DNA of 10,748 bases, taken from assembly GCA_021545665.1 (NCBI GenBank), contig JAJRTX010000167.1:1-10748 (forward strand), given 5' to 3'. The position numbers and the translations under genes are program-made. A model generated the notes under the pieces. It had not been told where the DNA came from, ran no database searches, and worked only from the letters and a program-made list of their open reading frames with translations. Shown here one piece after another: positions 7,669-10,631 of this stretch. Position 1 is the stretch's first letter. Each line of letters starts with the position of its first letter. Origin of the DNA: Zetaproteobacteria bacterium. GTDB lineage: Bacteria; Pseudomonadota; Zetaproteobacteria; Mariprofundales; Mariprofundaceae.

Positions 7669-9742
7669 TCACGACGATGTGCTGCATCAGCGCATTAATA
7701 GTCTCCGCATAGAATTAAAAGAACACAATTACCATTATTATACACTGGATGCGCCGCAAATCCCGGATGCCGAGTATGATCGCTTATTGCGTCAGCTTGA
7801 GAAGCTGGAAGTAGAGCTGGGTGAGCCAGTACCTGCTGATTCTCCGACGCAGATTGTGGGGGCAGTTCCATCTCATACATTTACAGCGCGAGAGCATGGC
7901 GAGCCTCTATTGTCGTTGGCTAATGCCTTTGACGAGCAGGAAGTCGAGGCATTTGTTCACCGTATTGGTGATGCTTTGGGGAAAGACAAACTCAGTTTTA
8001 TCATCGAACCCAAGGTTGATGGGCTGGCGGTTAATCTGAGTTATAAAAATGGTAGTCTGGATATTGCCGCCACGCGCGGTGACGGCACAAGTGGCGAAGA
8101 TGTCACTGATAATATTCGCACCATCAGCGATATTCCCTGGCACTTAAAGTGTGAGAACAAGTCGCCTCCGGCTATGCTGGAAGTGCGTGGTGAAGTGTAT
8201 ATGTCAAAAGCCGCCTTTGCTGAACTCAATGAACGACAGGATGCGGAAGGAGCATCGCCATTTGCCAATCCACGTAATGCGGCGGCGGGTTCGCTGAGGC
8301 AACTGGATGCGAAAGTAACGGCCAAGCGCGGCTTACGTTTTTTTGCCTATGGCACAGGGCTTGGCGGCCATGAACTGGCAGCAAACCAGTCCGGTTTACT
8401 GGGCAGGCTAAAGAATTTCGGGTTTGCCGTGCAGGGAACGGCCATGGCTGATAATGTGGAAACACTTCTGAAGTGCTATCAAGAGCTATTGGAGCAGCGC
8501 TCCAGCATGTCTTACGAGATTGATGGCGCGGTCTATAAGCTGAATGATTTTGCCTTGCAGAACCGCCTGGGCGCAGTTGCCCGTTCGCCGCGCTGGGCAA
8601 TTGCACATAAGTTTCCTGCTGAAGAAGTTGCTACGACAGTTCGAGGTATCATCTGGCAGGTGGGTCGGACAGGAGTGATTACTCCTGTTGCAGACTTGGA
8701 GCCTATTAATGTAGGCGGTGTCATTGTCTCGCGTGCCATCCTACACAATATCCAGGAAATGACGCGAAAGGATATTAGAGAAAACGATAGGGTGGTTGTT
8801 CGAAGAGCGGGTGATGTTATCCCTGAAGTTGCCCGAATATTTGAATATGAAAACGGTAGAGGGAAAGCACCTTCGGCACCACTCAAATGTCCCGTATGTG
8901 AATCTCATGTAGAGCAGTCTGACACTGAAGTTGCGATTCGTTGTTCGGGGGGCTTGTCCTGTTCTGCCCAGTTGAAAGAGAGATTGAAGCACTTTGTTTC
9001 TCGTGGGGCAATGGATATTGATACCCTTGGGGCAAAGTTGATAGAGATGCTGGTCGATGAGCCAGAAGGCTCGAATCTTAAAATATGCTCAATTGATCAA
9101 ATATATAAACCAAATTTCTTTGATTCTTTGGAGGGGCGCAAAGGCTTCGGCGAGAAAAAAATAAATGCGTTAAAAAAGGCAGTGGAAAATAGCAAAAAGA
9201 GGTCTTTATCTAAATTTATCTTTGCACTTGGTATTCGAGATGTTGGCGAAGTTACGGCAATTGCTTTGGCGAACCGCTTTCATTGCATCGAAAAAATTAG
9301 AGAAGCTAGTATTGAAGAGCTACAATCCATTGATGATGTTGGACCAGAGGTGACAAAGAGTATTAAGTCATTTTTTGAAGAAAAGCATAATATTACAGTC
9401 TTGGAATCTCTTAAAAGAGACGGGGTATGGCCTAAAGTAATCGAGTCAAATGCAGTTGTGTCTGACAGTCCATTTAAGGGGAAAAGTGTTGTTGTGACTG
9501 GAACTCTTGAATCTATGAGTAGGCCTGAGGCTCAAGAAAAATTACGACTTTTGGGAGCTAAGCCAACAGGATCAGTTTCAAAAAATACAGACTTAGTCAT
9601 AGCAGGATCAGGCGCAGGATCAAAGCTAGATAAGGCTAATCAGTTAGGAGTAAAGGTTATAGATGAAAACACTTTCCTTAACCTTCTGGGTGGAAATAAA
9701 TTGGAAGAGCCCAAAGAATCCAAGCAGGGTGTTTTATTATGA
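7640..9742 (+). CDS. ligA: NAD+-dependent DNA ligase, composition mosaic
   Basis: Seals 3'-OH/5'-phosphate nicks using NAD+ in replication and repair. From ATG 7640 (GAGGGG upstream) it is 700 aa, somewhat longer than E. coli LigA. Order of domains: Ia with HNYHYYTLD..IPDAEYDRL, adenylation domain with catalytic Lys125 in EPKVDGLA, RGDGTSGEDVTDNIRTI and SYEIDGAVYK, OB fold near 325-405 with VGRTGVITPVA, zinc finger Cys417/420/435/441, HhH region about 455-600, BRCT about 610-685, then an 18-residue polar tail. All key residues are intact, so the enzyme is probably active. Composition changes inside the gene: 8041-8100 has 31/60 G+C, 9361-9420 only 15/60, with the drop starting about 8740 and becoming marked after 9060. 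A longer open frame from 7592 is less likely. The stop overlaps the next gene (ATGA). Confidence 0.97.
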   Translation: MSKADQARANHDDVLHQRINSLRIELKEHNYHYYTLDAPQIPDAEYDRLLRQLEKLEVELGEPVPADSPTQIVGAVPSHTFTAREHGEPLLSLANAFDEQEVEAFVHRIGDALGKDKLSFIIEPKVDGLAVNLSYKNGSLDIAATRGDGTSGEDVTDNIRTISDIPWHLKCENKSPPAMLEVRGEVYMSKAAFAELNERQDAEGASPFANPRNAAAGSLRQLDAKVTAKRGLRFFAYGTGLGGHELAANQSGLLGRLKNFGFAVQGTAMADNVETLLKCYQELLEQRSSMSYEIDGAVYKLNDFALQNRLGAVARSPRWAIAHKFPAEEVATTVRGIIWQVGRTGVITPVADLEPINVGGVIVSRAILHNIQEMTRKDIRENDRVVVRRAGDVIPEVARIFEYENGRGKAPSAPLKCPVCESHVEQSDTEVAIRCSGGLSCSAQLKERLKHFVSRGAMDIDTLGAKLIEMLVDEPEGSNLKICSIDQIYKPNFFDSLEGRKGFGEKKINALKKAVENSKKRSLSKFIFALGIRDVGEVTAIALANRFHCIEKIREASIEELQSIDDVGPEVTKSIKSFFEEKHNITVLESLKRDGVWPKVIESNAVVSDSPFKGKSVVVTGTLESMSRPEAQEKLRLLGAKPTGSVSKNTDLVIAGSGAGSKLDKANQLGVKVIDENTFLNLLGGNKLEEPKESKQGVLL

Positions 9743-10500
9743 AAGAGTTTTTCCCATTATTTAAATGGGCTGTTCCCACTGACTTTTCTGATGCTGTTAA
9801 CCTGTGTCGATTTGAAGAAGGAGATACCCTTTATGATAGTTCCTTGGCTTATTGCGAAAGCTGGGAAGAGGCGAAGGGAGAAATTAATCATTCTTTACAG
9901 GTAAGGTATCCAGCTCGTTCAAGCAATGTGGTAAAAGGGACAGGAGGAGTATTCGAGAAAAACTGGTCTTCTGAAGTTAGGCTTGATCTATATAAAAATC
10001 TAATAAGGATAAAGTCAATCACAACTACTCAAGGGAAGCTTTATACTGCGTTATGGAAGAATAATTTGAAGGCCTTAGAGCCAAACAAAAGTCTTTCAAT
10101 TCCAATTAGATTAAAGCAAGTAATGGCTATGCTTAAAGAAGCTCCTCATGAGCTATCCAATTACTCTAAGGGCCACTTAACATTTGTTTTACCTAGAGAT
10201 ATTTCGAATCCAGTTTCAAAGGTGAAATATCAAAAAGTCTATTCTGCTTTGAACCCCCACCTCCAACCTGATGGGCCAATAATATTATCACCGAAAGAAG
10301 CTGATTTCCCTAATTGTGAAAATATTGCCCCAACAATTGATATTGTACTTTTCACAGTAAAGCTAAGTGATGAAGAGGAATTGGCTGAGTTAATCAAATC
10401 AGCTGTGTATGTGCCAACTAAGAATGCAAAGAAAGACATGTTTAGACTAGCCAGTCATGGGATAATTATTGATCGCTCCATATCATGGGAAGATTCTTGA
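9739..10500 (+). CDS. Unrecognised 253-aa protein co-translated with ligA
   Basis: I do not recognise this family. The start codon overlaps the ligA stop as ATGA, so the gene is likely translationally coupled to ligA, and its own stop is overlapped by a third ORF at 10485. The protein has no signal peptide or membrane segment, so it is probably cytosolic. Visible traits: an N-terminal block rich in aromatics (FFPLFKWAVP), a central basic and hydrophobic stretch (about 95-130), a beta-rich segment (HLTFVLPRD) and an acidic helix (LSDEEELAELIKSA). Base composition is low (9961-10020 has 18/60 G+C), like the 3' part of ligA and unlike the rest of the window, which suggests common foreign origin. 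A role beside the ligase, such as DNA repair or defence, is a guess from position only. Confidence 0.8.
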   Translation: MKEFFPLFKWAVPTDFSDAVNLCRFEEGDTLYDSSLAYCESWEEAKGEINHSLQVRYPARSSNVVKGTGGVFEKNWSSEVRLDLYKNLIRIKSITTTQGKLYTALWKNNLKALEPNKSLSIPIRLKQVMAMLKEAPHELSNYSKGHLTFVLPRDISNPVSKVKYQKVYSALNPHLQPDGPIILSPKEADFPNCENIAPTIDIVLFTVKLSDEEELAELIKSAVYVPTKNAKKDMFRLASHGIIIDRSISWEDS

Positions 10501-10631
10501 TTGCGTCATCAATAGAAATAATATCGATTAAGTTTTCGGTTCAGGGGAATGCTGATTCCCCATATGAAGTAACTTTTACAGTTAAAGGAAAAAATTTAAA
10601 TGCCTTTTGGGCCTGTCGGAAAACGATATAA
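10485..10631 (+). pseudogene. Third gene of the ligA-linked cassette, truncated by IS insertion
   Basis: An open frame starts at ATG 10485, overlapping the end of the 253-aa gene by 16 bp in another frame. It reads about 41 plausible residues (a hydrophobic SIEIISIKFSV start, then SPYEVTFTVKGKNLNAF) before running into the IS element near 10609 and stopping at TAA 10629 within it. The frame avoids stops in a low-GC region and has a strand-like alternation, so it looks like the N-terminus of a real protein. A pattern of this kind just before a Cys-rich motif is reminiscent of SWIM-type zinc-finger proteins, but the deciding residues are missing. No strong ribosome binding site is visible; coupling to the upstream gene is likely. 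Confidence 0.6.

Follow-up and report, generated by a model that had tools for sequence, protein, structure and literature searches.

The window analysed here is a 10,748-nucleotide stretch of a Zetaproteobacterial genome (contig JAJRTX010000167.1), and our subject within it is ligA, the gene for the NAD-dependent DNA ligase LigA, together with the genes behind it. Most likely, with a probability that we put at about 0.8, this ligA is a natural mosaic, in which a ligA tail and two linked genes came from another ligA lineage and replaced the matching resident part, either here or in an ancestor. The linked genes are a 253-residue gene of an unnamed family (g253) and a gene for a SWIM-type zinc-finger protein; loci lacking them are called module-less below. 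The initial annotation had taken the 3' part of ligA and the genes after it for an imported cassette. This reading is supported by a composition break that makes the gene an outlier (z=6.1), a break in protein similarity after residue 371, approximately unbiased (AU) tests of conflicting trees, the linkage of tail and accessory genes, and the resident flanks and ligA-end scar of Mariprofundus micogutta. The gene occupies positions 7640-9742 including the stop, g253 positions 9739-10500 and the first ~41 codons of the third gene positions 10485-10607; ligA and g253 overlap by 4 nucleotides, the start codon of g253 overlapping the ligA stop (ATGA).

7640..8752, + strand: resident-type front of ligA (residues 1-371), with the adenylation domain and the first part of the OB fold (assigned by identity, guanine plus cytosine (GC) content and trees)
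8627..8752, + strand: probable crossover zone: conserved residues 330-371, after which the similarity passes to another group of ligases (from the change point)
8753..9742, + strand: probable imported ligA tail, with the rest of the OB fold, Zn finger, HhH, BRCT, C-terminal extension and stop (74% identity to the M. micogutta tail, clade support 100/100, GC 0.409)
9689..9739, + strand: C-terminal extension of the LigA tail, residues 684-700, ending KQGVLL (shared KQ(G/D)xL(L/I) end)
9739..10500, + strand: g253, 253-residue gene of an unnamed family (86 homologues, structure model pLDDT 93.3)
10485..10607, + strand: SWIM zinc-finger gene, 5' fragment, start codon not certain (overlaps the end of g253; the homology, which reaches 10607, does not extend to the zinc ligands)
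5331..7668, + strand: resident upstream genes degP, grx-like and tlpA-like (28 of 29 module-less loci have tlpA in front of ligA)

Composition step within ligA

The GC profile of the window lies at ~0.47-0.55 across positions 7600-9000 and at 0.36-0.40 in profile segments starting from 9001. The ligA front (7640-8752, codons 1-371) has a GC of 0.511 and a GC at third codon positions (GC3) of 0.488, and the seven upstream genes measured have a GC of 0.461-0.515. For the tail (8753-9739) the values are 0.409 and 0.334. The drop had been described as continuing through g253 and the truncated open reading frame (ORF) behind it, and it does so, with GC and GC3 of 0.375 and 0.311 for g253 and 0.319 and 0.256 for the SWIM fragment. 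Codon usage along the region has the same step: among 11 stretches scored against the upstream genes, the score is negative for the tail, g253 and the SWIM fragment alone.

The change point for GC within ligA was placed at codon 478 (near-optimal range 343-485; none of 5000 permutations as extreme) and that for GC3 at codon 319 (310-479; 1 of 5000). These, together with the protein change point after residue 371 described below, fit a drop that was originally placed from around codon 367 and described as strong from 474. The permutations assume exchangeable codons and show only that the step is not an effect of shuffling, so that relatives are the stronger control. The comparison set comprised 30 other Zetaproteobacterial ligA genes (L003 and L027-L055), 29 of them without linked genes; the rows L001, L005, L010 and L025, which are partial or from another group, were left out. 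The difference between front and tail GC is +0.099 in the window, compared with a mean of -0.004 (standard deviation 0.017) in these relatives, which gives z=6.1 for GC and z=4.1 for GC3. None of the 29 ligA genes without linked genes has such a gradient, the maximum among them being +0.028. The sole relative above +0.03 is L003, which carries the linked genes (+0.048).

Conflicting placement of the front and tail of LigA

When full and near-full ligases were aligned, the window LigA had a change point of similarity after residue 371 (near-maximal range 318-373; nucleotide ~8752; none of 2000 permutations), where the resemblance shifts from resident-type ligases (L027-L029) to those of L003, P0090, P0091, P0093 and P0099. 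Identity to the resident 'A'-type LigA proteins is 69-77% over residues 15-371 and 48-55% over the tail (16 of the 19 A-type loci compared; the tail value of L025 covers only the part before the end of its contig). The LigA of L003 is 69% identical over the front and 74% over the tail, and those of L030 and L041 are 63% and 59-60% identical, respectively.

Trees of 66 rows each were built for the front (residues 15-365) and the tail (residues 372-684), and, as a mosaic would predict, the two placements differ. In the tail tree, the window, L003, P0090, P0091, P0093, P0094 and P0099 form a clade with support 100/100, which adjoins P0107, P0114 and P0115 (ten rows together, 99/98). Forcing these seven module-type ligases together with 18 resident ones was rejected on the tail (delta lnL, the difference in log likelihood, 114; p-AU 0.0002). 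In the front tree, the same seven lie inside a 27-row set (96/99), the 20 other rows of which carry no module label. Here it was the grouping with 21 'group B' rows, those near the tail clade, that was rejected (delta lnL 84, p-AU 0.0066); forcing the seven with P0107, P0114 and P0115 alone gave p 0.045. Within the front tree, L003, P0090, P0091, P0093 and P0099 form one clade (100/94), and the nearest rows to the window by path are L025, L027, L028, L029 and L034, which are module-less or resident-type. The break at residue 371 in the window nearly coincides with that at 367 in P0094.

Where they are named, the nearest relatives of the tail are largely other Zetaproteobacterial ligases, and the donor therefore need not be remote. 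Of the two accessory genes in the initial annotation, one is g253 and the other a SWIM gene. In bin G002, one contig (L025) holds a ligA front that is resident-type up to about residue 490, and another (L001) a module-type ligA tail. The break point may differ in this case, or the bin may combine two strains.

Across the change, the ligase motifs are intact, as had been stated. The window LigA matches PF01653, PF03120, PF03119, PF12826 and PF00533 in order and in one chain, all above the Pfam cut-offs; these are the adenylation and OB domains, the Zn finger, and the HhH and BRCT domains, and the tail retains all of its ligase domains. Compared with an ordinary LigA, which has the same five domains in the same order, the window LigA differs in being a mosaic, in its C-terminal extension and in its translational overlap with g253. 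The extension ends in a KQ(G/D)xL(L/I) peptide that is found in the window, L003 (P0089), P0090, P0091, P0093, P0094, P0099 and L001 and is absent from the 22 module-less loci compared. In the window this end is KQGVLL (9710-9742), which we take to resemble a sliding-clamp binding motif. The bases encoding it also give a Shine-Dalgarno-like stretch before g253, and it could be either a protein motif or the Shine-Dalgarno sequence of g253. In L001, the KQGVLL-type peptide is kept with different codons.

Resident flanks and a ligA-end scar in Mariprofundus micogutta

The gene g253 was found in 2 of the 78 Zetaproteobacterial genomes, in both cases directly behind ligA, which itself was found in 71 of the 78. 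The window and M. micogutta (L003) share the gene order rseC-degP-grx-tlpA-ligA, and in strain ET2 of M. micogutta the order is degP-grx-tlpA-ligA-g253-SWIM-rpoH-leuS. This genome has a single ligA match, and its module-type tail, g253 and SWIM gene sit between a resident tlpA-ligA front and rpoH. Among the 29 module-less Zetaproteobacterial ligA loci fetched, tlpA is upstream of ligA in 28, and the fetched DNA behind ligA includes rpoH in 14, recQ in 3 and neither in 12. The order in L001 is ligA-g253-SWIM-recQ.

At the nucleotide level, M. micogutta matches the module-less locus L034 at 73% up to the codon corresponding to residue 370-371, and the match resumes 3' of the SWIM gene and its stop at 81%, with an isolated 56-nucleotide match in the BRCT part between the two long ones. 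The left end of the exchanged block thus lies within conserved ligA sequence. One nucleotide after the SWIM stop stands TTAAACTGGCAATAG, which reads L N W Q stop. This is the end of resident Zetaproteobacterial ligases, for example in L033, L034 and L036, and the DNA that follows is collinear with the ligA-rpoH spacer of resident ligase loci. When a degenerate 15-mer of this sequence was searched on both strands of 1,215,454 bases, it was found only at the M. micogutta locus (three fetched copies) and at four resident ligA ends. We read TTAAACTGGCAATAG as the displaced end of the old resident-type ligA, left as a scar. M. micogutta therefore has resident synteny on both sides of the block and, behind the cassette, a leftover of the replaced ligA end.

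Timing of the exchange and alternative explanations

A number of observations weigh against the import reading, or against a recent date for the import. The break in L003 is placed at 338 with one reference and at 367 with another, and the near-optimal ranges are wide. With the window as the module reference, P0090, P0091 and P0093 lack a significant break (392, 459 and 281 of 2000 permutations), and that of P0099 is weak (35 of 2000). On the front, a single common origin of the seven module-type ligases was not rejected (p 0.35), nor was a constraint joining the window with the L003 group (p 0.27), and the pairing of the window with L025 has weak support (57/27). Because a single origin is left standing by the front tree, the case for a fresh swap in the lineage of the window rests on composition. 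The identities between the window and L003 are alike for front, tail and g253 (70, 74 and 68%), and hence there is no sign of a recent exchange between the two. The L003 front is somewhat AT-richer (0.455) than its neighbour genes (0.50-0.52). Finally, M. micogutta alone has a visible scar: homology in the window ends at 10607, before any right-hand junction, and no ligA-end scar is visible in L001. The swap may have taken place once or repeatedly.

The alternative that survives best is compatible with a mosaic and differs on timing. It is possible, and we advance it tentatively, that the tail was swapped once in an ancestor, after which the whole mosaic ligA and module were inherited or exchanged together. 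Such a history would account for the single tail clade of all seven module-type ligases, the near-coincident breaks (371 in the window, 367 in P0094 and 338-367 in L003), the front clade shared by L003 and four other ligases, and the p of 0.35 for one front clade. It would also suit the window degP, which is closest to that of L003 (75% over 466 residues; elsewhere 47-72% over fragments of 201-295 residues). However, the AT-richness in the window is confined to the tail, with the front like its neighbours, which would be unexpected if both had come or stayed together, and the front rows nearest to the window are those without the module or of resident type.

The M. micogutta scar resembles an attachment remnant, and could suggest that an element integrated site-specifically into the 3' end of ligA and supplied a new gene end, in the manner of prophage e14 in icd of Escherichia coli. 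We consider this very unlikely. Only g253 and the SWIM gene lie between ligA and rpoH in L003, with no site-specific recombinase among the ORFs of at least 70 residues there; a scan for repeats of at least 13 nucleotides (L003:8600-11300) gave no pair linking the end of ligA to that of the block; and the exchange extends ~310 codons upstream, with a leftover of just 4 codons and a stop. Prophage e14 is an integrating element that replaces a gene end by site-specific recombination and separates 163 bp (PMC6379469). The ligA case is like it in the foreign 3' end on a housekeeping gene and the remnant of the original end beyond the insert, and unlike it in the length of the exchange, the size of the leftover and the lack of an integrase.

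An assembly chimera, in which two ligA genes were fused where they are most conserved, is hardly credible. The contig may be metagenomic, the break coincides with the close of a strongly conserved block and bin G002 has two dissimilar ligA pieces, each on a contig of its own, but the genome of a named strain, M. micogutta ET2, has the same architecture with a matching break point, and five more full-length proteins in the trees combine a resident-type front with a module-type tail. An ordinary gradient, with the 3' half of ligA always AT-richer or faster evolving, is extremely unlikely: the part after residue 475 is indeed less conserved among the ligases compared, but the mean GC difference in the 30 relatives is close to zero and the conflict between the trees has AU support.

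The transferred DNA probably came from a bacterium of the tail clade. On its left, the conserved adenylation/OB block of ligA would have provided the homology for recombination; on its right, the join would lie at the extreme end of ligA and may have used short homology or been illegitimate. The essential ligase front would go on working with the new tail, such that the module would be carried by an indispensable gene. A comparable event is the displacement of effector-immunity modules of type VI secretion systems, for which homology-facilitated illegitimate recombination is a possible route (PMC5361080). There, too, an older gene gives way to a module and part of it stays behind; the recipient in that case is an accessory weapon gene, unlike the NAD-dependent DNA ligase gene here. 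Gene-end replacement with a leftover is already known from e14 and icd. Among the titles and abstract openings returned by searches of open-licence PubMed Central papers, none dealt with a g253-SWIM module or with ligA as an entry point.

The g253 family and its partners

Counting itself, g253 has 86 listed homologues, and its structure model has a pLDDT of 93.3. It has no significant match in Pfam, PADLOC or PDB sequences, and only insignificant ones in NCBIfam and PHROGs. The genome scan yielded 23 g253 loci and the viral scan 1. Including the window, 12 of the 25 loci have a LigA, BRCT or SWIM partner, one of these (L004) weakly. LigA lies beside g253 in the window, L001, L003, L005 and L010; stand-alone LigA-type BRCT proteins in L005, L007, L011 and L012, and weakly in L004 (E=0.0099); and SWIM proteins in the window, L001, L002, L003, L009 and L010, and on the opposite strand in L008. 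Pfam confirms the BRCT partners in L005, L007, L011 and L012 and the SWIM partners in L001, L009 and L010, and gives no match for the SWIM protein of L003 or the partner in L004.

Single-chain proteins add further links. One of the 86 homologues, P0044, combines g253, a WYL-like stretch (below the Pfam cut-off) and a LigA-type BRCT domain. In a prophage-like viral contig (L072:7953-9449), a 498-residue protein fuses the g253 domain to a PD-(D/E)XK nuclease domain (22.5 bits in Pfam, cut-off 22). This contig also has a terminase, and the fusion is encoded between a CI-like repressor and an integrase, a usual site for accessory phage genes. The partners and fusions suggest that g253 acts on DNA with LigA-type BRCT domains. 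An anti-mobile-element role could follow from the same links, and we would tentatively describe the block as a small DNA-acting accessory module of that kind, in which the BRCT-bearing LigA tail might work with g253.

The evidence for this role also has points against it. Neither partner is present at 13 of the 25 g253 loci (L006, L013-L023 and L072), and the profiles were built partly from tested loci (BRCT: L005, L011, L012; SWIM: L001, L003, L009, L010), where matches arise by construction. Among PADLOC models of known anti-phage defence systems, none matches g253, and only its partners match candidates, in each case in part: the BRCT partners of L005, L007, L011 and L012 match the C-terminal part of PDC-S48, and the SWIM partners of L001, L009 and L010 the N-terminal part of PDC-S62. 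The BRCT domain of the window's own LigA also matches PDC-S48, and such a match is therefore weak evidence for defence.

Two g253 genes appear to be broken, in L007:10001-10734 (two pieces in different frames) and in L009:10001-10999 (pieces ~300 nucleotides apart). The 692-residue protein P0088 has five LigA-type BRCT repeats outside any ligase.

The third gene of the window was recognised by a match (E=8.6e-9) to a profile of four related proteins. The initial annotation had described a truncated ORF running up to an insertion sequence (IS); the ORF proved to be a 5' fragment of a SWIM-type zinc-finger gene, while the IS as the cause of truncation was not confirmed, nothing having been found for the right end. 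At the left end, positions 1-125 of the window are a repeat present in 28 of the 78 Zetaproteobacterial genomes, with 11 matches in genome G058 and 92-94% identity in the best rows. This recurrence, like the gene order shared with M. micogutta and the place of tlpA, marks the window as a Zetaproteobacterial contig. The repeat is presumably the end of an IS30-type transposase; a Pfam search of the 36 residues at this end gave no match.

A mirrored arrangement is found in the Nitrospirae locus L010, with the order SWIM-g253-ligA. Here GC3 stays low until about codon 700 of 763 and from there on equals that of the relatives, which hints, from composition alone, that ligA could serve as an entry point or anchor from either side. 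The LigA of this locus (L010:1223-3511) is longer by ~92 residues, located at about 103-195 and by position near the start of the adenylation domain; most of the nine aligned relatives lack them.

Implications

One speculative extension, which we regard as unlikely as it stands, is that a defence-like module uses the essential replicative ligase as a subunit. The imported tail, with its Zn finger-HhH-BRCT part and KQGVLL-type end, would recruit g253 and the SWIM protein to nicks bound by the ligase. If this is true, a module tied to the tail of an essential gene would spread by ligA recombination and be hard to lose.

For the g253 family, the ties of an unnamed 253-residue protein to LigA, BRCT and SWIM proteins and, in a prophage, to a nuclease domain offer a directly testable lead. 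The trees and the scar of a named species, M. micogutta, document the entry of accessory genes by replacement of the end of a DNA-replication gene. On this evidence, housekeeping genes whose ends are exchanged can probably act as vehicles for accessory gene sets.

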